A stretch of 10,737 bases of DNA from Pseudomonadota bacterium (GTDB lineage Bacteria > Pseudomonadota > Alphaproteobacteria > Parvibaculales > Parvibaculaceae): assembly GCA_021780275.1 (NCBI GenBank), contig JAJXZC010000577.1:1-10737 (forward strand), written 5' to 3'. Shown piece after piece: positions 1-10,737 of this stretch. The notes below the pieces were generated by a model. The model did not search any database. It saw only the letters and a list, made by a program, of their open reading frames with translations, and was not told the DNA's origin. The translations under genes were made by a program, and so were the position numbers. Position 1 is the first letter of the stretch, and each line of letters begins with the position of its first letter.

Positions 1-746
1 TCTTCCAGACAGCAGACGCCCCGGTCCACGCGCTGTCGCATGTGGACCTGACAATCGCGAAGGGCGAATTCGTCTCCTTCATCGGCCCGTCCGGCTGCGG
101 CAAGACGACTCTTCTGCGTATCATCGCCGATCTTCAGCAAGCTACCAGCGGCACAATTCAAGTGAACGGCACCGGCCCGCAGGCTGCGCGGCTCGATCGC
201 GCCTATGGCTATGTCTTTCAGGCGCCCGCCCTCTTCCCGTGGCGCACGGTGGAACGCAACATCACGCTTCCTCTCGAAATCATGGGACTGAACAAGACTG
301 AACAAAAGGCCCGCGCGAAGCGTGTATTGGACCTGGTCAATCTGTCGGGTTTCGCACGCAAGTTTCCATGGCAACTTTCGGGCGGCATGCAGCAACGGGT
401 TTCGATTGCCCGCGCACTTTCCTTCGATCCAGACCTGCTGCTGATGGACGAGCCCTTCGGTGCGCTGGACGAGATCATTCGCGACCACCTGAACGAGCAA
501 TTGCTCGACCTCTGGCGACGTACCGAAAAGACGCTCGTCTTCGTCACCCATTCGATCCCCGAAGCCGTCTTTCTCTCGACCAGGATCGTTGTGATGTCTC
601 CGCGCCCCGGCCGGATCATCGACATCATCGATTCGCCTTTGCCGAGGGAACGGACGCTGGATATTCGCGAGACAACGGAATTCGCACAGGTTGCCCACAG
701 AGTTCGCGAGGGCCTGAAGGCTGGGCATTCCTATGACGACCGCTAG
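1..746 (+). CDS. ABC importer ATP-binding protein, SsuB/TauB/NrtD class (5' partial)
   Basis: This is the cytoplasmic ATPase that powers the importer formed with the next three genes. The reading frame (codons from position 3) is open to the left edge; the GTG at 42 is an internal Val codon, because the residues before it (FQTADAPVHALSHV) fit the usual first strand of the family. About 247 residues are visible, so only some 10-20 are missing. Motifs seen: Walker A GPSGCGKTT (84-110), Q-loop Gln (219-221) followed by the LFPW segment typical of SsuB/TauB/NrtD, signature LSGGMQQR (375-398), Walker B LLLMDEPFGALDE (Asp at 447-449) and switch His (549-551). The C-terminal MSPRPGRI segment is also typical of this class. 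The gene overlaps the following permease by 14 bp, indicating one operon. The class is sure; the substrate cannot be read from the ATPase. Confidence 0.95.
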   Translation, partial: FQTADAPVHALSHVDLTIAKGEFVSFIGPSGCGKTTLLRIIADLQQATSGTIQVNGTGPQAARLDRAYGYVFQAPALFPWRTVERNITLPLEIMGLNKTEQKARAKRVLDLVNLSGFARKFPWQLSGGMQQRVSIARALSFDPDLLLMDEPFGALDEIIRDHLNEQLLDLWRRTEKTLVFVTHSIPEAVFLSTRIVVMSPRPGRIIDIIDSPLPRERTLDIRETTEFAQVAHRVREGLKAGHSYDDR

Positions 747-1656
747 CGCCCCTCTCGCCTCTTCGGGCGGCCTCATCCGTCGCGCGGCGCGAGGGACCGC
801 GCTTCCCGTCGCAGCCATTCTTCTGCTCGTCCTCGCCACCTGGTATGTGGGCACCGTCTTCCTCAACGCTTCTGTCGTAACCGATCAATATCAGCGCGAC
901 GGCAAGACCAGCTGGACGACAGACGAACTCATCTTCGACACCATGTCGATGGAGCGTCCGGTTCTGCCCGCGCCCCATCAGGTGGCGGCGGAACTCCAGA
1001 AGTCGATCTTCGGCGTCAAACTGACCTCGAAACGCAATCTCCTCTATCACGCCTGGGTCACCTTCTCGGCGGCCTTTATCGGCTTCGCCTTCGGCAACCT
1101 GCTCGGCATTGCGCTCGCCATTGCCATCGTTCACGTGAAGAGCCTCGAGCGTGCGCTGCTCCCCTGGGTCATCGCATCGCAGACCGTGCCGACGCTCGCC
1201 ATCGCGCCCATGATCATCGTCGTGCTGGGCTCCATCGGCATTGTCGGCCTTTTACCCAAGGCGCTGATCTCCACCTATCTCTGCTTCTTTCCGGTCACCA
1301 TCGGCATGGTAAAGGGGCTTTCCTCGCCGGAGCCCATTCAGCTCGATCTGATGCGCACCTATAGCGCCAGCGAAGCTCAGACGCTGCGCTATCTGCGCCT
1401 TCCCGCCTCGCTCTCCTTTCTCTTTCCCAGCATGAAGGTGGCCATGGCTCTTGCCATTGTCGGCGCCATCGTCGGCGAGTTGCCGACAGGTGCGCAGGCA
1501 GGCCTCGGCGCACGCATTCTCGCGGGCTCCTACTACGGTCAGACGGTGCAGATATGGTCCGCGCTCGTCGCCGCCTCGATCCTTTCGGGCGCCTCGGTCG
1601 GCCTCATCGGCATCGGCGAAGGCTGGCTTTCGCGCCGCTTCGGAGACCGGGCATGA
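733..1656 (+). CDS. ABC importer permease 1 (BPD_transp_1 / SsuC-like)
   Basis: Inner-membrane permease of 307 residues, the first of two unlike permeases that probably form a heterodimer. TM1 is about residues 22-45. A hydrophilic stretch of roughly 60 residues (about 46-105) follows before the core helices start near 106; SsuC/TauC proteins normally have a much shorter loop here. The EAA coupling loop that contacts the ATPase is visible from about residue 206 (LMRTYSASEAQTLRYLRLPA), followed by the GAIVGE segment and a final helix. The ATG at 733 lies inside the end of the ATPase gene with only a weak GAAGG (716-720) upstream, so coupled translation is likely. The stop codon overlaps the next start (ATGA). 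Family assignment is firm; substrate is not shown by the sequence. Confidence 0.93.
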   Translation: MTTASAPLASSGGLIRRAARGTALPVAAILLLVLATWYVGTVFLNASVVTDQYQRDGKTSWTTDELIFDTMSMERPVLPAPHQVAAELQKSIFGVKLTSKRNLLYHAWVTFSAAFIGFAFGNLLGIALAIAIVHVKSLERALLPWVIASQTVPTLAIAPMIIVVLGSIGIVGLLPKALISTYLCFFPVTIGMVKGLSSPEPIQLDLMRTYSASEAQTLRYLRLPASLSFLFPSMKVAMALAIVGAIVGELPTGAQAGLGARILAGSYYGQTVQIWSALVAASILSGASVGLIGIGEGWLSRRFGDRA

Positions 1657-2759
1657 AGCGAGATCCCGCTCTCCTCATCGCCGTCGCGCTTGGCGCCCTC
1701 GCCTTGCCGCTTCCACTCGGCGCTGCATCATGGACAGCAGCACCCTTGTCTCTCGCGCTCTGGCTCGCGATGGCAGCGGCGGCAATATTCCAGATGCTTC
1801 GTCCCCTGCCGACTGCCCGCGCCTTCGGGTTGCTTGGCATCGCCACACTCGCTGGCGGTGTCTCGCTCCTGAAGCTCGTCGAGGCAGGCGCGAGCGGAGG
1901 TGATGCGCTGGCGCTCTGGACCGGGCTTGCTTCGCTCTTCTTCCTCGTCTGGCGGCTGCTCGAACGCGCGGCCATGCTGGGAATTGAACATCCCGGCATT
2001 GCGACGCTCATCGCAGCCCCGCTCATTTTCGGCTTCTGGCTCCTCTATGTCTGGCAAATGCTCGTCACGGGCTTCGAGGTGCCGGGCGTTCTGTTGCCTG
2101 CGCCCAGCGTGATCTGGTCCTCCATAATGGGCGCACGTGACACGCTCGCCGCCGATTTCATGCAGACATTCATCAAAGCCGTCATTCCGGGCTTTTTGAT
2201 CGGCTGCAGCGCGGGCTTCGTCACCGGCCTGCTCGTCGACCGAGTGCCCTTCCTGCAGCGCGGCCTTCTCCCTCTCGGCAATCTCGTCAGCGCACTGCCT
2301 ATCGTCGCCGTTGCGCCGATCATGGTCATGTGGTTCGGCTTCGACTGGCAGTCCAAGGCTGCTGTCGTCGTCATCATGACCTTCTTCCCGATGCTGGTGA
2401 ACACCATCGCCGGGCTCGATGCACTGGGACGCATGGAGCGCGACCTCATGGCCACCTACGCCGCAAGCTATGGGCAGACGCTTTCCACGGCCAGAATTCC
2501 CGCTGCGCTGCCCTTCGTCTTCAACGCGCTGAAGATCAACTCCACCTTGGCGCTGATTGGCGCGATCGTTGCAGAGTTTTTCGGTACGCCGATCGTGGGC
2601 ATGGGTTTTCGCATTTCGACCGAGGTCGGCCGCATGAATATCTCGATGGTCTGGGCAACGATCGCCGTAGCCGCCGCCGCCGGTTCCGCGAGCTACGGCC
2701 TCATCGTCCTCGCAGAGCGTCGCTTCACATTCTGGCACGCGTCATTTCGCAAGCCGTGA
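1653..2759 (+). CDS. ABC importer permease 2 with extra N-terminal membrane segments
   Basis: Inner-membrane permease of 368 residues. The frame stays open back to 1554, but the ATG at 1653 is preferred: it overlaps the previous stop as ATGA, has GGAGA at 1642-1646 six bases upstream, and the protein then begins MKRDPALLIAVALG, a normal membrane-protein N-terminus, whereas the upstream extension is Arg-rich shadow sequence. The N-terminal 120 or so residues hold about four hydrophobic segments, which SsuC/TauC-type permeases of about 250-280 residues lack. The standard core follows, with the EAA loop from about residue 265 (LMATYAASYGQTLSTARIPA) and GAIVAEFFGTP after it. It pairs with the upstream permease and ATPase. 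The extension may be structural or regulatory; its role is unknown. Confidence 0.92.
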   Translation: MKRDPALLIAVALGALALPLPLGAASWTAAPLSLALWLAMAAAAIFQMLRPLPTARAFGLLGIATLAGGVSLLKLVEAGASGGDALALWTGLASLFFLVWRLLERAAMLGIEHPGIATLIAAPLIFGFWLLYVWQMLVTGFEVPGVLLPAPSVIWSSIMGARDTLAADFMQTFIKAVIPGFLIGCSAGFVTGLLVDRVPFLQRGLLPLGNLVSALPIVAVAPIMVMWFGFDWQSKAAVVVIMTFFPMLVNTIAGLDALGRMERDLMATYAASYGQTLSTARIPAALPFVFNALKINSTLALIGAIVAEFFGTPIVGMGFRISTEVGRMNISMVWATIAVAAAAGSASYGLIVLAERRFTFWHASFRKP

Positions 2760-2793
2760 TTTTTCCCCAGGGGCAACACAGAGGAGTAATTGC

Positions 2794-3798
2794 ATGAAGT
2801 TGAAGGCAATCTACGGAGCGGTGCTAGGGGCGGCGCTTCTTGGGTCGCTCAACGCGACCGGCGCGCAAGCCGCCGACGCCGTGACCTTGCAGCTCAAATG
2901 GGTGACGCAGGCGCAGTTCGCCGGCTATTATGTCGCCAAGGACAAAGGCTTCTACAAGGACGCCGATCTCGACGTCACAATCAAGCCGGGCGGTCCCGAC
3001 ATTGCGCCCGAACAGGTGATCGCCGCAGGTGGCGCCGACGTCATCGTCGACTGGATGCCCGCCGCGCTCGCGGCCCGCGAAAAGGGCGTGCCGCTGGTCA
3101 ACATTTCGCAGACCTTCCAGAAATCCGGCATGGAACTGACCTGCGCGGCGTCGAGCGGAATCAAGTCTCCCAGGGACTTTCCAGGTCACACCCTCGGCGT
3201 CTGGTTCTTCGGCAACGAATATCCGTTCCTCGCATGGATGGCGAAGCTCGGCCTCCCAACCGATGGCAGCGCCAAGGGCGTGAAGGTGCTGAAGCAGGGC
3301 TTCAACGTCGATCCGATCATCCAGAAGCAGGCCGACTGCATCTCGACCATGACTTACAACGAGTACTGGCAGGTCATCGACGCGGGCTTCAAGCCTTCTG
3401 ATCTCGTCGTCTTCAAATACTCGGATCAGGATGTCGGCATGCTTGAGGATGGCCTCTATGCCGATGGCAAGAAGCTCGCCGACAAGGCCTATGCCGACAA
3501 GCTCGCCCGCTTCGTAAAAGCCTCCATCAAGGGCTGGGAATGGGCCAAGGCGCATCCGGACGAGGCGGCGATGATCGTGCTCGACAACGACACGACGGGC
3601 GCCCAGACCGAAAAGCACCAGAAGCGCATGATGGCCGAAGTGGCGAAACTCCTGGGCGAAACGAAGCTCGGCTATCTGGAACCTGCGGATTACGAGCGCA
3701 CAGTCTCGATCCTGCTCTCGACCAAGTCCGATCCGGTCATTACCAGGAAGCCCGAAGGCGCCTATACGCACGCGATCTACGAGGCGGCGATGAAATAG
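2794..3798 (+). CDS. NMT1/THI5-like periplasmic substrate-binding protein
   Basis: Periplasmic binding component of the importer, 334 residues. Residues 1-26 form a signal peptide (Lys-containing start, hydrophobic core, AQA cleavage site); there is no lipobox Cys, so the protein is soluble. The mature start, LQLKWVTQAQFAGYYVAKDK (residues 32-51), is the hallmark of the NMT1/THI5-like group that includes binding proteins for thiamine pyrimidine precursors, other pyrimidine-like compounds and riboflavin precursors. Further family segments are VDWMPAAL and KQADCISTMTYNEYW. The ATG at 2794 has a strong GAGGAG (2781-2786) seven bases upstream, better than for the other genes of the operon, which fits the usual excess of binding protein over membrane parts. 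It is the last gene of the operon and is followed by a strong terminator. The RutR-like site downstream favours a pyrimidine ligand, but that is inference. Confidence 0.93.
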   Translation: MKLKAIYGAVLGAALLGSLNATGAQAADAVTLQLKWVTQAQFAGYYVAKDKGFYKDADLDVTIKPGGPDIAPEQVIAAGGADVIVDWMPAALAAREKGVPLVNISQTFQKSGMELTCAASSGIKSPRDFPGHTLGVWFFGNEYPFLAWMAKLGLPTDGSAKGVKVLKQGFNVDPIIQKQADCISTMTYNEYWQVIDAGFKPSDLVVFKYSDQDVGMLEDGLYADGKKLADKAYADKLARFVKASIKGWEWAKAHPDEAAMIVLDNDTTGAQTEKHQKRMMAEVAKLLGETKLGYLEPADYERTVSILLSTKSDPVITRKPEGAYTHAIYEAAMK

Positions 3799-3827
3799 AG
3801 GGCAGACAGCCTTCGACGACCCATGAG

Positions 3828-3853
3828 CGGCGGGGGAAACCCCGCCGTTTTTT
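3828..3853 (+). terminator. Rho-independent terminator closing the first ABC operon
   Basis: An 8-bp perfect stem CGGCGGGG / CCCCGCCG (3828-3835 with 3840-3847) is closed by a GAAA tetraloop and followed directly by six T residues (3848-3853). It starts 30 bases after the stop codon of the binding-protein gene. This separates the first importer operon from the oxygenase operon, so the latter needs its own promoter. Confidence 0.95.
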
Positions 3854-3990
3854 CATGCCCGGCCATCAAAAAGCACTCCGCTGAATTTGTATGCATGTGC
3901 TGCTCAATAATCCGTCGAATCCGTGTGGGCATAGCCGAAAAACGGCCCTCCCCCGGCCTCCCGAAAATGGCACGGGACTTGAAGAATGAG

Positions 3991-4008
3991 CCTGACCAAT
4001 TGGTCAGG
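3991..4008. promoter_or_regulatory. RutR-like operator, perfect 18-bp palindrome
   Basis: CCTGACCAATTGGTCAGG is a perfect inverted repeat (9 + 9, no spacer), ending 40 bases before the oxygenase ATG. The E. coli RutR (TetR family, uracil/thymine-responsive repressor and activator) consensus as I recall it is TTGACCANNTGGTCAA. The core TGACCA-AT-TGGTCA is identical, and only the outermost pair differs (C..G instead of T..A). Nothing this long or exact is expected by chance in one short intergenic region. The regulator gene is not in the window. Another TetR- or GntR-family protein with a similar site cannot be excluded. Confidence 0.75.
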
Positions 4009-4021
4009 ATTCTGACGAATT
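3998..4021. promoter_or_regulatory. Second, overlapping inverted repeat with a third half-site
   Basis: A 24-base imperfect inverted repeat, matching at 10 of 12 pairs, shares its left arm (AATTGGTCAG, 3998-4007) with the right half of the perfect palindrome and has its right arm (CTGACGAATT) at 4012-4021. The region therefore has three related half-sites in 31 bases (3991-4021). This may be a two-dimer or alternative-register site for the same regulator, or a second regulator's operator. The sequence cannot tell which. Confidence 0.45.
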
Positions 4022-4048
4022 CCACGACGACGCAACGAACAAAGACGG

Positions 4049-5059
4049 ATGAGCGCGATGACACTCAAAGCAGTGCCGATAATCGACATTTCGCCATTCC
4101 TCGAGGGAACGCCTGAGGGCAAGAAAAGGGTCGCCGCCGAAATCGGCCGCGCCTGCCGCGACATCGGCTTCCTCGTGATTACGGGGCATGGGGTTCCTGA
4201 AACCCTCATCCAGCAGACCTACGACACGGCAAAAGCCTTTTTCGACCTTCCCGAGACAGAGAAGATGAAGGTTGAGCGGCCGAGCCCCGATCAGGTGCGC
4301 GGCTACAGCCCGCTGATGGGAGAAGGTCTCGCCTACAGCCTCGACGACAAGACGCCGCCCGACCTCAAGGAATCCTTTTCCATCGGGCCGACCGACGTGC
4401 CCGCCGGCGATCCCTATTACACGGGCGCCGAAGCCGGTCCCCATTTCGCACCGAATGTCTGGCCAGCCTCGCCCTCTCTGCTGAAGCCGGTCTGGACCGA
4501 ATATTTCCATGCCATGGAGAAGCTTTCGGCACAGCTCATGGCCATGTTCGCCATGTCGCTCGACCTGCCCGAGGATTTCTTCGAGGACAAGATCGACAAA
4601 CACATCAGCATGTTGCGCGCGCTGAATTATCCCGATCAGGAAACACCGCCTGAGCCCGGCCAGATGCGCGCCGGCGCACATTCCGACTATGGCAGCCTCA
4701 CCATCGTCCGGCAGGAAGAAGCGCCCGGCGGGCTCGAAGTTCTCAACGACGATGGAGAATGGGTGCCTGCGCGGCCCGTTCCCGGCGCTTTCGTCGTCAA
4801 TATCGGCGACCTGATGATGCAGTGGACCAACGACACCTGGAAATCCACCATGCACCGGGTCGTCAATCCGCCGCGCGACAAGGCGCTCGGCAGCCGCCGC
4901 ATTTCGCTCGTCTTCTTCCATCAGCCGAACTATGACGCGATGGTGACCTGCCTCGATAGCTGTCACGACGACGGTCACCCGATCAAATATGCGCCGATCA
5001 GCTCGGGCGATCACCTGAAGAGCAAGTTCGTCAAACAGACCTCCGTCGAGGCCGCGTGA
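4049..5059 (+). CDS. Fe(II)/2-oxoglutarate-dependent oxygenase, isopenicillin N synthase family
   Basis: Soluble enzyme of 336 residues that should couple 2-oxoglutarate decarboxylation to oxidation of an unknown substrate. The N-terminal DIOX_N region is clear (VPIIDISPFLEG near residue 9; ACRDIGFLVITGHGVPE). The double-stranded beta-helix core carries the facial triad His211-x-Asp213 (AGAHSDYGSLTI) and His269 (STMHRVVNPP), with the 2-oxoglutarate-binding Arg284-x-Ser286 (SRRISLVFF). The Arg-x-Ser argues for a 2-oxoglutarate user, although true isopenicillin N synthase also has it. All key residues are present, so it should be active. ATG 4049 is used; an in-frame ATG at 4058 is an alternative, as neither has a strong Shine-Dalgarno. 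Fungal thymine 7-hydroxylase belongs to this superfamily, and with the RutR-like operator a pyrimidine or nucleoside substrate is attractive but unproven. The stop overlaps the next start. Confidence 0.93.
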   Translation: MSAMTLKAVPIIDISPFLEGTPEGKKRVAAEIGRACRDIGFLVITGHGVPETLIQQTYDTAKAFFDLPETEKMKVERPSPDQVRGYSPLMGEGLAYSLDDKTPPDLKESFSIGPTDVPAGDPYYTGAEAGPHFAPNVWPASPSLLKPVWTEYFHAMEKLSAQLMAMFAMSLDLPEDFFEDKIDKHISMLRALNYPDQETPPEPGQMRAGAHSDYGSLTIVRQEEAPGGLEVLNDDGEWVPARPVPGAFVVNIGDLMMQWTNDTWKSTMHRVVNPPRDKALGSRRISLVFFHQPNYDAMVTCLDSCHDDGHPIKYAPISSGDHLKSKFVKQTSVEAA

Positions 5060-5448
5060 TGGCCGAGCTTTCCTACGTCAATATTTTCGCGAAGGACATC
5101 GTCGCCCTTTCGAGCTTCTACATGGATGTCTTCGGCTTCACCGAGATCGAGGCCATTCGCTCGCCAATCTTCCGTGGCGTCGCCACCGGCAAGAGCGCCA
5201 TCGGCTTCAACGCGCTGGACGCTTATGAGCTTCTGAAGCTCAGCGACTATGCGGATACGAGAGGTATCAAGTTCCTCCTCAATATCGACGTCGATACGCC
5301 GGAGGAGGTCGACCGCATGGTTCCGGTCGCTCTATCCAGGGGCGCGACGCTGATCAAGGAGCCCTACAAGACTTACTACAACTGGTATCAGGCCGTTCTG
5401 CTTGATCCGGAAGGCAACGTGTTCCGCATCAACAAGATGCTGGAATAA
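5059..5448 (+). CDS. Small VOC-fold (glyoxalase/bleomycin-resistance/dioxygenase) protein
   Basis: A 129-residue single VOC module pair (beta-alpha-beta-beta-beta twice). The first half has the SYVNIFAKDIVALSSFYMDV strand-helix pattern and the second ends in LLDPEGNVFRINKM. The start overlaps the oxygenase stop (TGATG at 5057-5061); GTG at 5056 is also possible, adding one residue. Tight coupling implies the two proteins work together. By eye the positions that usually hold metal ligands are Tyr6, Phe72 and Arg123 rather than His/Glu, so a metal-dependent lyase or dioxygenase activity is doubtful. A binding, isomerase-like or accessory role is as likely. The N-terminal half lacks the His of the HVxLxVxD motif. 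Fold assignment is good; function is unknown. Confidence 0.85.
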   Translation: MAELSYVNIFAKDIVALSSFYMDVFGFTEIEAIRSPIFRGVATGKSAIGFNALDAYELLKLSDYADTRGIKFLLNIDVDTPEEVDRMVPVALSRGATLIKEPYKTYYNWYQAVLLDPEGNVFRINKMLE

Positions 5449-5546: not shown

Positions 5547-6644
5547 ATGAGATCAAACTGGTGGCTGAAGATCGCGACGGTGGCAACCGTTGCGGTCGGC
5601 ATGATGAGCGGCTCCGCCTTTGCGGACGATGCCGGCTTTTCGCTGAAGGGCAAGCCGAAGATCGCCATGATCATGTACGGCGCGAAGAATGACGGTGGCT
5701 GGACACAGGCCTTCGAAGAGGCGCGCGAGCGCATGGAAAAAGACCTGGGCGTGAAGATCGCCTATGTCGAGAACGTCGAGGAAAATGCGGCGAAGATCAC
5801 GCCGCCCGTTGAGAAGTTCATCAAGAAGGGCTACAACATCATCATCGGAACGGCCTTCGGCTACTCCGATACCTTCCTTGAACTGTCGAAGAAATATCCC
5901 GACGTCGCCTTCCTGAATGGCTCCGGCACGACCAACGGTCCGAACCTTCAGGCCTTTTACGGCCGCACCTATGAGAGCCAGTATCTCTGCGGCATGGTCG
6001 CAGGTGCGATGTCTAAGTCCGGCAAGCTCGGCTTCGTCGGCGCCAACCCCTATGGCGTTGTGAACTGGACCGTGAACGGCTTCGAACTGGGCGCCAAGCT
6101 CTCCAATCCGAAAGCGACGACGACGGCCATCTTCATCGGCACCTGGGCCGATCCGGTCAAGGAACGCGCGGCTGCCGAAGCGCTCATCGACGGCGGCGCC
6201 GACGTCATCGGCCAGCATGTCGACACTCCCACCCCACAGATCGTCGCGCAGGAGCGTGGCGTTTTCGGCACAGGCCATCACCGCGATCTCAGCGAATTCG
6301 CTCCCAAGGCAACGCTCTGCTCATCGGTCTGGTACTGGGATCGTTATCTGACGCCGGAACTCAAGAAGATCATCGCCGGTGGTTGGAAGCCCAATCCCTA
6401 TGGCGCCTTCCCGACCATCAAGGAAGGTCCGACCGACATCATCCTGAACAAGAAGCTCGTTCCGGCCGACGTCGTGAAGAAAGTCATGGCCGAACGCCAG
6501 GCGCTCATCGACGGCAAGGAAATCTATGCCGGTCCGATGGCCGATGTGAGCGGCAAGGAGCAGGTGCCTGCGGGCAAGGTGCTCGACGATGCCGGTCTCT
6601 GGAAGATGGACTGGTACGTGCCGGGCGTCATCACGCAGAAGTAA
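5547..6644 (+). CDS. BMP-family (PnrA/Med-like) periplasmic nucleoside-binding protein
   Basis: Binding component of a nucleoside-type ABC importer, 365 residues. Residues 1-26 are a Sec signal peptide ending SAFA before Asp27-Asp28; there is no lipobox Cys, unlike the lipoproteins PnrA/TmpC of spirochaetes and BmpA of Gram-positives, as suits a soluble periplasmic protein. BMP features: KIAMIMYGAKNDGGW at residues 38-52, GTAFGYSDTFLELSKKYPDVAF, the YESQYLCGMVAGAM segment and KLGFVGANP. ATG 5547 has AGAGGG (5534-5539) seven bases upstream. It is followed by the ATPase and two permeases in the order usual for such systems. Characterised family members bind purine or pyrimidine nucleosides; the ligand here could also be a free base or a modified nucleoside. 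Confidence 0.93.
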   Translation: MRSNWWLKIATVATVAVGMMSGSAFADDAGFSLKGKPKIAMIMYGAKNDGGWTQAFEEARERMEKDLGVKIAYVENVEENAAKITPPVEKFIKKGYNIIIGTAFGYSDTFLELSKKYPDVAFLNGSGTTNGPNLQAFYGRTYESQYLCGMVAGAMSKSGKLGFVGANPYGVVNWTVNGFELGAKLSNPKATTTAIFIGTWADPVKERAAAEALIDGGADVIGQHVDTPTPQIVAQERGVFGTGHHRDLSEFAPKATLCSSVWYWDRYLTPELKKIIAGGWKPNPYGAFPTIKEGPTDIILNKKLVPADVVKKVMAERQALIDGKEIYAGPMADVSGKEQVPAGKVLDDAGLWKMDWYVPGVITQK

Positions 6645-6654
6645 GTGACACGGA

Positions 6655-6687
6655 CAGGGACGCGGAGCCGCCGGTTTCGCGTCCCTG
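6655..6687 (+). other. Intercistronic 10-bp hairpin after the BMP gene
   Basis: CAGGGACGCG (6655-6664) pairs perfectly with CGCGTCCCTG (6678-6687) around a 13-base loop. The following bases (ACTTTGCAT) are not a T-run, so full termination is unlikely. It lies 10 bases after the stop of the binding-protein gene and 22 before the ATPase start. Such hairpins commonly protect the upstream transcript end or attenuate read-through, giving more binding protein than membrane parts. That role is inferred. Confidence 0.7.
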
Positions 6688-6709
6688 ACTTTGCATCCAG
6701 GGTTTTCCC

Positions 6710-8215
6710 ATGACGCTAGCGCTCGACCTTGTCGATATCCGCAAGACCTTCGACAGTTTTGTCGCGCTGGACGACGCGCGGTTCTCAGCCTATTCGGGCG
6801 AAGTTCACGCGCTGCTCGGCGAAAACGGCGCCGGAAAATCCTCACTGATGAATGTTGCCTGCGGACTCTACACGCCCGACGCCGGCCGGATGCTGCTCCA
6901 CGGGGCGGAAGTCTCTCTCTCAGGCCCCAGCGAGGCGAGTGCGCGCGGGATCGGCATGGTCCATCAGCATTTCAAGCTGGTGAAGCCCTTCACCGTTGCG
7001 GAAAATATTCTTCTCGCAAATCCGCGCCGGAGCTTCGGCAAGGGCATTCGCGAAATCTCCGATGAAATCCGCAGGCGTTCCGACATGCTCGGCTTCAACA
7101 TCGACCCCACACGTCGCGTCGGCGAACTTTCGGTGGCCGAGCAGCAGCGCACTGAAATCCTGAAAGTGCTCGTCGGCGGCGCGCGCATTCTCATTCTCGA
7201 CGAGCCGACAGCCGTTCTTACCGATCAGGAAGCAGAAACGTTGCTGACCACGGTACGCGGCATCGCCGCTGAAGGAGCGGCAATCATCCTCGTCACCCAC
7301 AAGCTCGCGGATGTGAAGAAGTTTGCCGATCGCGTCACCGTGATGCGCGGCGGAAAAACGGTCACGACGATCGATCCCTCGACCAGGACCACGGACGAGC
7401 TGACGGAATTGACGGTCGGCGCCAATCTTCCCCTTCCCGCCCGCACGCCCGGTCATTTCGGCCGCCGCCGCATCGAGGTCATCAATCTGCGCTGCACACG
7501 CGCCGACGGCCATGTAGCACTCGAAGATGCGAGCTTCCATGTCCGCGCAGGTGAGATCTATGGCATCGCCGGCGTCAGCGGAAACGGACAAAGCGAACTT
7601 GCGGAAGCACTGATGGGCGTGCGCACGCCCGAAAGCGGTTTGATCCAGATCGAGGACGCGGGCGAAGCCGTCTCCGCCGCGAGCCCAGCCAGAATGCGGG
7701 CGCTCGGCGCGGCTTTCATCCCCGCCGATCGCTACAGCTACGCCCTTGCGGGCAGCCTTTCAATCACTGAAAACTTCGCCGTTGGCGGCGTCGGCACCGG
7801 CCGCTATGGCTCCTGGGCGCGTCTTCGCCAGAGCGCGATGAAAAGAGATGCGGAAGCAGCGATTGCCGCATTCGACGTGCAGGGCGTGCGCACCCAGTCG
7901 CAAAAGGCAGCGCTGCTTTCCGGCGGCAATGCGCAGAAGCTCGTCATCGCGCGCGAGTTCAGCCGCTCGCCCAATGTCATCGTGGCACATAGTCCGAGCC
8001 GCGGCCTCGACGCGCGGGCGACCGCTGCTGTCCATTCGCGCCTGATGTCGGCGCGCGAAAGCGGCGCTGCGGTGATCCTGATCAGCGAGGACCTCGATGA
8101 GGTGCTCGCCCTTTCCGACCGGATCGGCGTGATGACACATGGCCGCCTCGTCGCCGAGTTCGACGCGCCGGCCGACCGGCAACAAGTAGGACGCGCCATG
8201 GTGGGCCATGTCTGA
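6710..8215 (+). CDS. Nucleoside ABC importer ATPase with two fused nucleotide-binding domains (NupO/YufO-like)
   Basis: Cytoplasmic ATPase of 501 residues, the normal length for tandem-domain ATPases of BMP and sugar importers. Domain 1 is canonical: Walker A GENGAGKS at 37-44 (Lys43), signature LSVAEQQ at 140-146, Walker B ILILDEP with Asp164-Glu165, and an H-loop THK. The signature departs from LSGGQ, as is usual in this class. Domain 2 (from about residue 255) has a degenerate P-loop GVSGNGQS at 288-295, with Gln294 where Lys is expected, signature LSGGN at 403-407 and a Walker B reading VIVAHSPSRGLD, without the Asp-Glu pair. This asymmetry is normal for RbsA/NupO-type proteins. ATG 6710 follows AGGG (6699-6702). 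The gene overlaps the next permease by 8 bp. Confidence 0.94.
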   Translation: MTLALDLVDIRKTFDSFVALDDARFSAYSGEVHALLGENGAGKSSLMNVACGLYTPDAGRMLLHGAEVSLSGPSEASARGIGMVHQHFKLVKPFTVAENILLANPRRSFGKGIREISDEIRRRSDMLGFNIDPTRRVGELSVAEQQRTEILKVLVGGARILILDEPTAVLTDQEAETLLTTVRGIAAEGAAIILVTHKLADVKKFADRVTVMRGGKTVTTIDPSTRTTDELTELTVGANLPLPARTPGHFGRRRIEVINLRCTRADGHVALEDASFHVRAGEIYGIAGVSGNGQSELAEALMGVRTPESGLIQIEDAGEAVSAASPARMRALGAAFIPADRYSYALAGSLSITENFAVGGVGTGRYGSWARLRQSAMKRDAEAAIAAFDVQGVRTQSQKAALLSGGNAQKLVIAREFSRSPNVIVAHSPSRGLDARATAAVHSRLMSARESGAAVILISEDLDEVLALSDRIGVMTHGRLVAEFDAPADRQQVGRAMVGHV

Positions 8216-9314
8216 GGACGCAATTTCAACAATTCCCGTTCCCTCAGCGCCAAAGCGCCGCCTGCGCGGAATTCGCTTCAATCTGGAAGTCCGGCGCGAC
8301 ATCTCGTCATGGTGGCAGGCGGCCTATCTTGCGGGCTTCATTGCGCTTGGCGTCGGCATTTCGGCCATCATCCTCATCTGGGCTGGCGTTCCAGCCGGCG
8401 ATCTGGTCGACCAGTTCCTCGTCGAGACGCTCACCGACAGCGACAATCTGCGCTCCGTGTTTTTTCAGGGAGCGCCCTTCATCCTTGTTGGGCTAAGCGC
8501 TTCCGTTGCTTTCCGCGCGCGCTTCTGGAATCTCGGACTTGAAGGCCAGATGATCTGGGGTGGCATCGGCGCCACATTCATTTCGATTCACCACATCGGA
8601 CCGGAAGCGCTTCGGCTGCCGATTATGATCTTTACGGCAGCAGCCTGCGCGATGGCCTGGGTGGCGATTGCCGGGCAGCTCAAGCTCAAGCTCGCAGTCA
8701 ACGAGATCATATCGACGCTGCTCATGAACTATGTTGCGCTGAACTTTCTCTATCACCTGCTCTACGGTCCGTGGCGCGATGCGACGGACGGCTTTCCCCA
8801 TTCGCCGAAATATGCGGATTTCGAGCGCCTGCCGGATGTCTTCGGCTTTAGCGGCGCGTTGCCGCTCGCCCTCATCGCGGCGCTTGTCATCTGGTGGCTC
8901 GTCAGCTTCACCCGCTTCGGATTCTACATGAAATTCGTGCAGGCGAGCGACAAGGTCGCGGGCGCGGTCGGCATTCCGGTCACTCGTATCACGCTGATCT
9001 CCGTGCTTCTGTCCGGCGCGCTCGCGGGCATTGCCGGCTTCGTCGTCGCCTCCGGACAGGAAGGCCGCCTGATCCAGAATTTCTCCGACGGCTATCTCTT
9101 CTCCGGCATCCTCATCGCCTTCCTGTCGCGTAACAATCCCATCGTCGCCGTGATCGTGGCGATGCTGGTCTCCATGCTCTTCATCTCCGGTCAGAGCCTT
9201 CAGGTGTTCTACCAAATCCCCTTCGCCATGGTTCAGCTCGTCCAGGCGATCATTGTCATATGCGTCGCCGCGTCGGAATTCCTGATCCGTCATCGCATCC
9301 ACATCGTTCGCTGA
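8208..9314 (+). CDS. Nucleoside ABC importer permease 1 (BPD_transp_2, NupP/YufP-like)
   Basis: Inner-membrane permease of 368 residues with about nine hydrophobic segments. The first 35 or so residues are polar and cytoplasmic. TM1 is near residues 40-62. The family motif FWNLGLEGQMIWGG follows FRAR, and AVNEIISTLLMNYVALNFL is the conserved segment of YufP-type proteins. A long loop holds WRDATDGFPHSPKYADFERLP, also typical of this subfamily, and the conserved GIPVTRI and SGALAGIAGFV segments come later. The ATG at 8208 overlaps the ATPase end by 8 bp (ATGTCTGA), with only a distant AGTAGGA at 8185-8191, so coupled translation is likely. It partners with the permease encoded 9 bp downstream. 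Confidence 0.93.
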   Translation: MSEDAISTIPVPSAPKRRLRGIRFNLEVRRDISSWWQAAYLAGFIALGVGISAIILIWAGVPAGDLVDQFLVETLTDSDNLRSVFFQGAPFILVGLSASVAFRARFWNLGLEGQMIWGGIGATFISIHHIGPEALRLPIMIFTAAACAMAWVAIAGQLKLKLAVNEIISTLLMNYVALNFLYHLLYGPWRDATDGFPHSPKYADFERLPDVFGFSGALPLALIAALVIWWLVSFTRFGFYMKFVQASDKVAGAVGIPVTRITLISVLLSGALAGIAGFVVASGQEGRLIQNFSDGYLFSGILIAFLSRNNPIVAVIVAMLVSMLFISGQSLQVFYQIPFAMVQLVQAIIVICVAASEFLIRHRIHIVR

Positions 9315-9317
9315 GGG
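9313..9317 (+). promoter_or_regulatory. Ribosome binding site fixing a GTG start
   Basis: GAGGG overlaps the preceding TGA stop and stands six bases before the GTG at 9324. The next in-frame Met is far inside the conserved core, so this site decides the GTG start of the second permease. Confidence 0.65.
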
Positions 9318-9323
9318 CCTGAG

Positions 9324-10262
9324 GTGTACGAACTCTTCATCAACTGGATTGCGAATACGCCGGGCTATGCGGCCCCCTATGCGCTGGCTGCGCTCGGGCT
9401 CATTCTTTGCGAGCGCGCGGGTGTCCTCAACCTCACGGCCGAAGGCATCATGCTGGTCGGCGCCCTTTCGGGCATCGGCGCCACGTTGATCATGGGCGGC
9501 TATCCGCCCGTTGCGATCATCATCGCGATGATCATGGCCGCGCTCGTCTCCATGCTCTTTGCGACCATGACCGTTCTCCTGCGCGTCAATCAGGTGATCG
9601 CGGGCCTCGCCATGGTCTTCTTCTGCCAGGGGCTGACGGCGCTTCTCGGCAACCTCTTCGAATGGAAGAACCAGCCCATCACGGGCATCGGGCGGATCGA
9701 CATCTGGCCGCTCTCGGAAATTCCGGTCATCGGTCACATATTCTTCAGCCAGGACATAATCGTCTTCCTGATCATCCCGATCTTCTACCTCGTCAACCGC
9801 GTGCTGACGCGCAGCATGGTCGGCCTGCGCCTGCGCGCGGTCGGCGAAAGCCCGGAAGCCTCTGACGCTGCCGGCATCAACGTCACGGCCTATCGCTTCC
9901 TGACGGTGATGGCGGGCTCTGGGTTGGTCGGCCTCGCAGGCGCCTATATCTCGGTCGCCAGCACGAAGATATGGGTCGATAACGTCACAGCGGGTCGCGG
10001 CTGGATCGCGCTCGCCCTCGTCATCTTCGCCCGCTGGCGGCCCTGGCGCGCGCTGCTCGGCGCGCTTCTCTTCGGCGCCATCGAAAGCGCCATGCCGCGC
10101 ATCGCGGCAGCAGGCATCAAGGTGCCCCAATACTTCATGCTCATGCTCCCCTATGTCGTGACGCTCGGCGTCATGATCTGGGTTGCCTGGTCGAAGCGGG
10201 GCGGCGCGACGGATGAGCCGGGCGCCCTCGGCCAACCGCATGTGCGCGAAGAGCGCCGCTGA
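9324..10262 (+). CDS. Nucleoside ABC importer permease 2 (BPD_transp_2, NupQ/YufQ-like)
   Basis: Inner-membrane permease of 312 residues, the shorter partner of the pair, as is usual for NupQ/YufQ. It starts at GTG. The family core is clear: CERAGVLNLTAEGIMLVGAL near residues 28-48 matches the NxGxEG motif region of the partner, and RVNQVIAGLAMVFFCQGLTALLG corresponds to its NEIIST segment. GLRLRAVGESPEASDAAGIN is the cytoplasmic coupling loop, followed by SGLVGLAGAYIS. The last segment before the polar C-terminus is FMLMLPYVVTLGVMIWVAW. Nine bases separate it from the preceding gene and 21 from the hydrolase that follows, so all are probably one transcript. Confidence 0.93.
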   Translation: MYELFINWIANTPGYAAPYALAALGLILCERAGVLNLTAEGIMLVGALSGIGATLIMGGYPPVAIIIAMIMAALVSMLFATMTVLLRVNQVIAGLAMVFFCQGLTALLGNLFEWKNQPITGIGRIDIWPLSEIPVIGHIFFSQDIIVFLIIPIFYLVNRVLTRSMVGLRLRAVGESPEASDAAGINVTAYRFLTVMAGSGLVGLAGAYISVASTKIWVDNVTAGRGWIALALVIFARWRPWRALLGALLFGAIESAMPRIAAAGIKVPQYFMLMLPYVVTLGVMIWVAWSKRGGATDEPGALGQPHVREERR

Positions 10263-10283: not shown

Positions 10284-10737
10284 ATGCAGGCCTATGTCTA
10301 TGGCGCGAAGCGCGAGTTGCCGGAAGGCTTCGAGGACTATGTCAGCCTGAAAAATACGGCCGTCATATCGATCGACATGCATGAAGGTCATCTGGCCGAC
10401 ACGCCCGATTGTCCCTGCCCTGCACCCCGCGCCCGAGAGATCGTGGAGCCCCTCAACGAATTTCATCGCGCTGTCCGCGCATACGGCGTCCCCGTCATTC
10501 ACGTGCGCAGCGTGCTCCGCAAAGGCGGCGCGGACGACCTCAAGGGCATTCCCTCGGCGTGGCGACGCACCTTCCCGCTCTATGTGGGAGACATCCCCAA
10601 TGCTGACGAGCATGCGATCGAGGGGACACGCTGGACGAACTTCGTCACCGAGGTCGCAGACGGTGATCTCGTTGTCGAAACGAAAAAGCGTCTCTCGGCC
10701 TTCTATCCGACCGACATCGACTTTCTGTTGCGCAACA
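10284..10737 (+). CDS. Isochorismatase-family cysteine hydrolase (amidohydrolase), 3' partial
   Basis: The first 151 codons of a cysteine hydrolase; the right edge of the window cuts it. ATG 10284 has AAGGGA (10271-10276) seven bases upstream. The catalytic Asp is Asp31 in AVISIDMHEGH, and the Lys is Lys134 in ETKKRLSAFYPTDID, which fits the family K-x3-SAF-x2-T-D pattern. The nucleophilic Cys would come some 30-40 residues later, outside the window. Family members cut amide or carbamoyl bonds: nicotinamidase, N-carbamoylsarcosine amidase, biuret hydrolase, and RutB, which acts on ureidoacrylate in uracil breakdown. Next to nucleoside transport genes a RutB-like role on a ring-opened base is plausible. 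The PDCPCPAPRAREIV insert (about residues 41-54) is somewhat unusual. The exact substrate is not identifiable. Confidence 0.9.
   Translation, partial: MQAYVYGAKRELPEGFEDYVSLKNTAVISIDMHEGHLADTPDCPCPAPRAREIVEPLNEFHRAVRAYGVPVIHVRSVLRKGGADDLKGIPSAWRRTFPLYVGDIPNADEHAIEGTRWTNFVTEVADGDLVVETKKRLSAFYPTDIDFLLRN

Follow-up and report, generated by a model that had tools for sequence, protein, structure and literature searches.

The regulators closest to the one considered here are RutR of Escherichia coli and PydR of Pseudomonas putida, the latter reportedly a RutR-like repressor of dihydropyrimidine dehydrogenase. One RutR study gives the consensus as palindromic and roughly 16 bp long, and names W77, Y97, W167, Q171 and Q179 as the residues that hold uracil (PMC10891134); a comparative study describes RutR regulons reconstructed in 68 proteobacterial genomes, with a mean of 10.9 target genes and motifs whose substitutions are taxon-specific (PMC5343134). 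Two further systems are relevant to the genes discussed below: (i) the thymine 7-hydroxylase (T7H) of the fungus Neurospora crassa (5c3p), described as tolerating N294A and, for thymine, N87A/E122A (PMC4787775); and (ii) AtzT (6pi5), a free-nucleobase binding protein of the BMP family that belongs to the atrazine plasmid and is described as binding guanine at 0.11 uM and thymine at 620 uM, guanine thus being preferred, in a source that also refers to the structure 3s99, modelled with adenine (PMC6834077).

The window, by which we mean the whole 10,737-base stretch of DNA analyzed here, contains the perfect 18-bp palindrome CCTGACCAATTGGTCAGG at positions 3991–4008 (no strand assigned), which we propose as a PydR/RutR operator on the basis of its sequence, its rarity and the presence of the same site in Parvibaculum sedimenti. 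Its core, TGACCA-AT-TGGTCA, lies at 3993–4006 and matches exactly the form TGACCA-N2-TGGTCA, which we take to be the letters of the E. coli RutR box. The palindrome reported at this position in the initial annotation was confirmed by the sequence: the window has no other perfect 18-bp palindrome (mean of 0.10 in 300 first-order Markov simulations) and no other match to TGACCA-N2-TGGTCA with two or fewer mismatches (0.20 expected). When the window is aligned with P. sedimenti, no base differs across the palindrome or the 55 aligned positions 3' of it, and every one of the 29 differences among 265 aligned window positions falls upstream of it. Based on the Markov expectation, this conservation and the gene context, a chance palindrome was rejected. 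A search of the region around the palindrome (3700–4200) revealed no sigma-70-like promoter.

Forty bases separate the palindrome from the ATG at 4049, which opens the first downstream reading frame, a DIOX_N/2OG-FeII_Oxy protein (4049–5059, start at 4049 or 4058; PF14226/PF03171); this 2OG-Fe(II) oxygenase and all other genes of the window are encoded on the plus strand. Upstream of the palindrome lie an NMT1/THI5-type ABC transporter (ATPase, two permeases and binding protein; 3–3798), identified by family matches, and a GC-rich plus-strand hairpin (3828–3853; arms 3828–3835 and 3840–3847, followed by TTTTTT) that is nearly unchanged in P. sedimenti and absent from the output of a consensus scanner. 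As the hairpin and its six T residues probably end the preceding transporter operon, the palindrome would precede a separate oxygenase operon. The start of the second gene of this operon, encoding a VOC/glyoxalase-fold protein (5059–5448; PF00903), overlaps the oxygenase stop; its closest solved chain is 2rbb, the one close solved relative, and of 80 loci (the best 80 of 314 relatives), 77 have a VOC gene next to the oxygenase gene. There follows a BMP-type ABC transporter that spans 5547–10262 as a whole, consisting of a BMP-family periplasmic binding protein (5547–6644; PF02608), an ATPase with two ABC domains (6710–8215; PF00005, two stretches) and two permeases, one assigned by PF02653 (8208–9314) and the other by NCBIfam matches to BMP-type permeases that lie below cut-off (9324–10262). 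The last gene, for an isochorismatase-family amidase (10284–10736; PF00857), runs off the window; the full P. sedimenti amidase resembles biuret hydrolase, N-carbamoylsarcosine amidase and RutB, in each case far below cut-off.

The nearest genome is that of P. sedimenti, with 95% identity between its oxygenase and the one in the window. Upstream of the part equivalent to the window, its locus (L001) encodes, in order, a dihydropyrimidinase (minus strand), a RutR-family regulator (948–1787, minus strand, divergent from the pyd genes), a PreT-like flavoprotein, PreA, a ureido-hydrolase-family protein and the NMT1-type transporter. PreA (722 bits, cut-off 335) scores above cut-off, as does the ureido-hydrolase-family protein (662 bits against 452), which belongs with the allantoate amidohydrolases/carbamoylases; the dihydropyrimidinase gene is cut by the end of the locus and covers 256 of 454 model positions, scoring 314 bits (cut-off 393), and the PreT-like flavoprotein reached no equivalog cut-off. 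From these matches, we read the genes upstream of the NMT1-type transporter as a putative reductive pyrimidine (pyd) operon, of which the transporter is probably the uptake system. The closest solved relative of the binding protein encoded in the window is the pyrimidine-precursor binder 3ix1, and transporters of this NMT1/THI5 type recur in the pyd clusters of loci L123, L124 and L125.

A scan of the whole P. sedimenti assembly with TGACC-N4-GGTCA (TGACCNNNNGGTCA), performed in this sister species as the initial annotation had proposed for the complete genome, detected five sites, while the reversed control pattern detected two. Three of the five cluster around the RutR-like gene, the pyd genes and the oxygenase: one precedes the dihydropyrimidinase, one lies in the interval from the regulator to preT and one precedes the oxygenase. 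The regulator gene is flanked by one site on each side (TGACCATTCGGTCA and TGACCGAAAGGTCA). The exact sequence TGACCANNTGGTCA occurs once in this genome, before the oxygenase; the sister sites of the cluster differ from it at one and two positions.

The same cluster provides the TetR-family RutR homologue that had been anticipated, with its uracil pocket intact: the P. sedimenti regulator, the only PF08362 match above cut-off in its genome, matches the E. coli RutR structures at 1.6e-43 and keeps all five of the uracil-holding residues named above as well as K52 of the DNA-binding helix. Among 23 distinct RutR-family proteins (those with loci, out of 34 PF08362 matches over cut-off), 20 keep the five contacts and the remaining three change one residue each, while an unrelated TetR protein used for comparison keeps none of the five. 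Although the regulator shares the TetR_C_3 family and these contacts with E. coli RutR, it is only about 41% identical to it over the aligned part, adjoins pyd rather than rut genes, and scores 191.9 bits against the RutR equivalog TIGR03613, below the cut-off of 368. None of the 22 oxygenase genomes that we chose reached that cut-off, not even those with rut linkage; the highest score was 343.2, and rut-linked family members ranged from 277 to 343. In a tree of 25 rows, which has some long branches and several unresolved inner forks, the P. sedimenti protein falls into a separate nine-row clade (support 98/100), made up of six rows from pyd-type clusters and three that represent additional copies in Pseudomonas genomes. 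Given its score and its separate clade, RutR proper was rejected as the local regulator. The family, the pocket and the recurrence of the motif largely uphold the RutR-type reading, but the regulator is PydR-like, and as it lies below the RutR cut-off, "PydR-type" is the better name. PydR of P. putida is its closest known namesake. Likened by description rather than by sequence, both are RutR-like regulators beside the reductive pyrimidine genes that they would control; unlike that of P. putida, the regulon proposed here would also include the oxygenase/VOC/BMP-transporter operon. Three Pseudomonas genomes with rut operons (G012, G020, G022) carry a further PF08362 copy of the PydR clade, two of these having Ile or Leu in place of W77.

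Across the best 80 of 314 relatives, a set of loci that is dominated by Pseudomonadaceae and whose members are not independent, RutR and at least three rut genes adjoin the oxygenase operon in 33 loci. Representatives exceed the NCBIfam cut-offs for RutA, RutB, RutC, RutD, RutF and malonic semialdehyde reductase. A RutR-family gene only is present in three more of the 80, and the pyd cluster in P. sedimenti. Six actinobacterial loci (L033, L034, L036, L037, L051, L067) contain a dihydropyrimidinase, a carbamoyl-amidase-like protein, a methylmalonate-semialdehyde dehydrogenase and a sugar-type ABC transporter. In 37 of the 80, some of which are cut by a contig end, the fetched stretch lacks any rut, pyd, dihydropyrimidinase or RutR gene. 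The oxygenase had initially been described as a target that is not itself a rut or pyd gene; it is nevertheless not isolated from such genes, as it follows the pyd locus in the sister species and adjoins rut genes in 33 of these 80 best loci. PpnN (pyrimidine/purine nucleotide nucleosidase; 733 bits, cut-off 450) adjoins the rut genes at about 2800–4590 in four loci of Pseudomonas abyssi and Halopseudomonas (L024, L027, L043, L066). Neighbor annotation of the Stutzerimonas loci returned unrelated genes, four frames from L003, L004, L008 and L009 had no Pfam match, and a plasmid search returned 31 records with partial matches only, none covering 80% of the query.

In the 22 oxygenase genomes, hand-picked from the 80 loci for variety, PreA was detected in six, RutA in 13, both in none and neither in three (G004, G005, G008), the last being the same three that lack a PF08362 match. 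These three genomes (loci L004, L005 and L009) keep the oxygenase, BMP and amidase genes without PreA, RutA, a RutR-family match or a good box. As base rates, with small genomes included, PreA occurs in 49 and RutA in six of 289 genomes from the class of P. sedimenti, and RutA in one of 274 genomes from the class of P. oryzihabitans, namely the centre genome. PF08362 is found in 42 of the 289 alphaproteobacteria, 39 of which have PreA, in 33 cases within 15 kb. Oxygenase relatives (E <= 1e-70) are present in 38 of the 289; counting these, which include distant oxygenases of 40–53% identity, PreA occurs in 15 of the 38 genomes versus 34 of the 251 others (p = 0.0003). The corresponding link to PF08362 is weak (10 of 38 versus 32 of 251, p = 0.044), probably because most of the oxygenase relatives are distant. 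Of the six genomes with an oxygenase match of at least 56% identity, four have both PreA and a RutR-family gene, with PreA 7–33 kb away on the same contig, G115 has RutA, and G204 has none of PreA, PF08362 and RutA. Taken together, the linkage, chosen-genome and 289-genome counts indicate that close oxygenase orthologues accompany pyrimidine-base degradation by either route, while distant ones need not.

The designation "isopenicillin-N-synthase-type", used for the oxygenase in the initial annotation, turned out to be a name only. Of 7,995 candidates scored, 5,274 were homologous to it at E <= 1e-60 (orthologues and distant relatives together, the best 120 of which were inspected), and sources give this family no name more specific than "isopenicillin N synthase family oxygenase" or similar. 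The nearest solved fold, at the top of the fold ranking, is fungal T7H, and true isopenicillin N synthase was rejected because it ranks behind T7H and other 2OG enzymes. By sequence, the best match is the ancestral EFE 9ovh (2.4e-50), followed by T7H (1e-47). As in T7H, a 2-His-1-Asp iron site (H211, D213, H269) and 2OG-binding Arg, Ser and Tyr residues (R284, S286, Y194) are present. R190, Y214 and F290, equivalent to R190, Y217 and F292 of T7H, are present and invariant in 36 aligned members, but they occur in the ancestral EFE 9ovh as well. Conversely, the fungal enzyme is only 33% identical, and in a pairwise alignment that is gapped near E122, its polar base contacts N87, E122 and N294 are replaced by V83, Y124 and Q292. 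In six loci (L017, L019, L020, L026, L045, L073), further oxygenase paralogues (36–41%) have as neighbors an NMT1-type binding protein, an amidohydrolase or both, the amidohydrolase resembling 5'-deoxyadenosine or guanine deaminases below cut-off.

The nearest solved relatives of the BMP binding protein are AtzT and 3s99; as both bind free bases, the BMP-type transporter is assigned by homology to the free-nucleobase uptake class. The alternative label "putative B6 transporter" was not adopted, since the NCBIfam matches behind it are far below cut-off. The hint at a substrate class given by the operator is strengthened by the fold ranking and the rut/pyd linkage and weakened by the replacement of N87, E122 and N294 and the guanine preference of AtzT, and on these comparisons we consider a pyrimidine base the likely substrate; that it is thymine itself would be a guess, and a tentative one.

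It is also conceivable, if rather unlikely, that the operator reading is right but that the oxygenase acts on purines or other N-heterocycles, uracil merely reporting nucleic-acid scavenging. The closeness of the binding protein to guanine-binding AtzT and to adenine-bearing 3s99 would fit such a role, as would six Marinobacter/Halopseudomonas loci, where a second, distant oxygenase paralogue has as a neighbor an amidohydrolase whose best matches, none of which reaches its cut-off, are 5'-deoxyadenosine and guanine-type deaminases. However, it is to rut, pyd or dihydropyrimidinase clusters that this orthologue group is linked, and besides that amidohydrolase and the PpnN of four loci, the annotated neighbors, which cover the commonest families only, include no purine gene.

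We give a similarly low probability to demethylation of modified RNA-derived pyrimidine nucleosides or bases (e.g., methylated or thiolated uracils), as carried out by PHYHD1/FJS of another fold family. 2OG demethylases that act on 2'-O-methyl nucleosides have been described in bacteria, but they belong to PF05721 (PMC12709175), whereas the oxygenase belongs to PF14226/PF03171; moreover, the closest binding proteins of solved structure carry bases in the free form rather than as nucleosides. In five actinobacterial loci (L029, L030, L036, L051, L067), a protein that falls just short of the threshold for a TudS-related putative desulfidase family (126 bits, cut-off 130) near the oxygenase/VOC pair speaks for this explanation. 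The TudS-like protein of these loci hints at a thiolated or otherwise modified uracil.

Returning to the proposed operator, we found exact cores within 400 bases before the oxygenase in four of the 80 best of 314 loci (Parvibaculum, Tistrella, Roseiarcus, Methylobacterium), and cores with one mismatch in three more. For upstream comparisons with control windows, L047 and L048 were dropped because too little DNA was available, leaving 78 loci from the best 80 of 314. Within this set, matches to TTGACCANNTGGTCAA with at most two mismatches in 14 positions precede the oxygenase in 17 loci (0.22% of 7,800 control windows), and those with at most three in 26 (2.8% of control windows). Many Stutzerimonas, Pseudomonas and Marinobacter loci carry the variant GACCATTTGATC. 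A core that allows this variant is present in 30 of the 78 loci versus 70 of 15,600 control windows; for a more relaxed version of the box, the counts are 51 of the 78 versus 425 of 15,600, both patterns having been adjusted after the sites were seen; the unadjusted GACCANNTGGTC is present in six of the 78 versus 68 of 15,600. Even the relaxed pattern is missing before 27 of these 78 oxygenases, among them those of L008, L011 and L012, whose genomes have a RutR-family regulator, and those of the ten actinobacterial loci tested. As none of these ten has a RutR box, RutR control is not claimed for them.

Similar sites accompany the regulators themselves. In pyd-type genomes, TGACCAAGCGGTCA lies beside the regulator gene in Tistrella and TGACCAAATGGTCA in Roseiarcus, and L125 has two sites beside the regulator gene and one more before the dihydropyrimidinase, while L123 and L126 have no similar site beside the regulator gene. 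GACCA-N2-TGGTC occurs in the rutR-rutA interval (with a 60-base margin) in 13 of the 24 rut-type loci examined, and also in L127, L128 and L130. The upstream conservation that the initial annotation had proposed to look for among orthologues therefore extends to many proteobacterial loci but not to all, given the 27 of 78 (from the best 80 of 314) without a box. With the same reservation, membership of the oxygenase in a pyrimidine regulon is favored by the regulator, the recurrence of the motif and the rut/pyd linkage. On a Tistrella chromosome (L132, 9428–15050), a distant oxygenase paralogue (36% identity), BMP-transporter genes and a gene for RutR proper occur together, with the RutR-like box TTTGACCATCCGGTCGGG 190 bp before the matched stretch, possibly a second, independent instance of an oxygenase/RutR association.

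A coincidental resemblance to the RutR box, with the palindrome serving an unrelated TetR-family or other regulator, is very improbable: TGACCA-type half-sites are short and the operator is a candidate from sequence, but in the P. sedimenti genome the motif clusters near a RutR-family gene and the pyd genes, boxes of this kind recur elsewhere in the rutR-rutA interval and upstream of the oxygenase, and in the three sampled genomes without PF08362 (G004, G005, G008) the best site before the oxygenase has five or six mismatches.

We therefore regard it as very likely, judging from sequence comparisons, that the palindrome is a RutR/PydR-type operator, and as likely that the reading as a whole is correct, i.e., that this operator belongs to a uracil/thymine-controlled operon whose oxygenase most likely acts on a pyrimidine base; direct repressor binding, the ligand response, the direction of control and the oxygenase substrate are inferred. 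According to this proposal, a TetR-family dimer of the RutR/PydR type would occupy 3991–4008, about 40 bp before the oxygenase start, and block the operon for the 2OG-Fe(II) oxygenase, the VOC protein, the nucleobase-type ABC transporter and the amidase. The repressor would sense uracil or thymine, remaining bound when the base is absent and being released when it is present. Since the same repressor would control the adjoining reductive pathway (dihydropyrimidinase, PreT/PreA, ureido-hydrolase and NMT1-type transporter), uracil or thymine would release the oxygenase operon together with the pyd operon. The transporter would import the base and the oxygenase would oxidize it, possibly at the methyl group of thymine or on another substituted uracil, with the oxidized product entering the Pyd or Rut pathway.

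While a RutR/PydR operator is of a known kind, what is new is that the regulon would also take in this oxygenase operon. Our literature search retrieved no paper linking this oxygenase to RutR or PydR, although the RegPrecise target lists may already contain such a link. Somewhat short of an even chance, in our estimate, is the more general proposition that bacteria have a RutR/PydR-controlled, 2-oxoglutarate-dependent pyrimidine-base oxidation (oxygenase, VOC protein and nucleobase transporter) that is portable before Rut or Pyd and probably converts thymine or a substituted uracil that these pathways handle poorly.

A widespread oxygenase family would be tied in this way to a sensor and a pathway, and its possible substrates narrowed to a few that a single assay could test. 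Were thymine the substrate, the enzyme would be a bacterial counterpart of fungal thymine 7-hydroxylase and would explain how organisms with the Rut or Pyd pathway deal with substituted uracils. That related bacteria often have the operon together with uracil-degradation genes points to an unstudied step in bacterial pyrimidine use.
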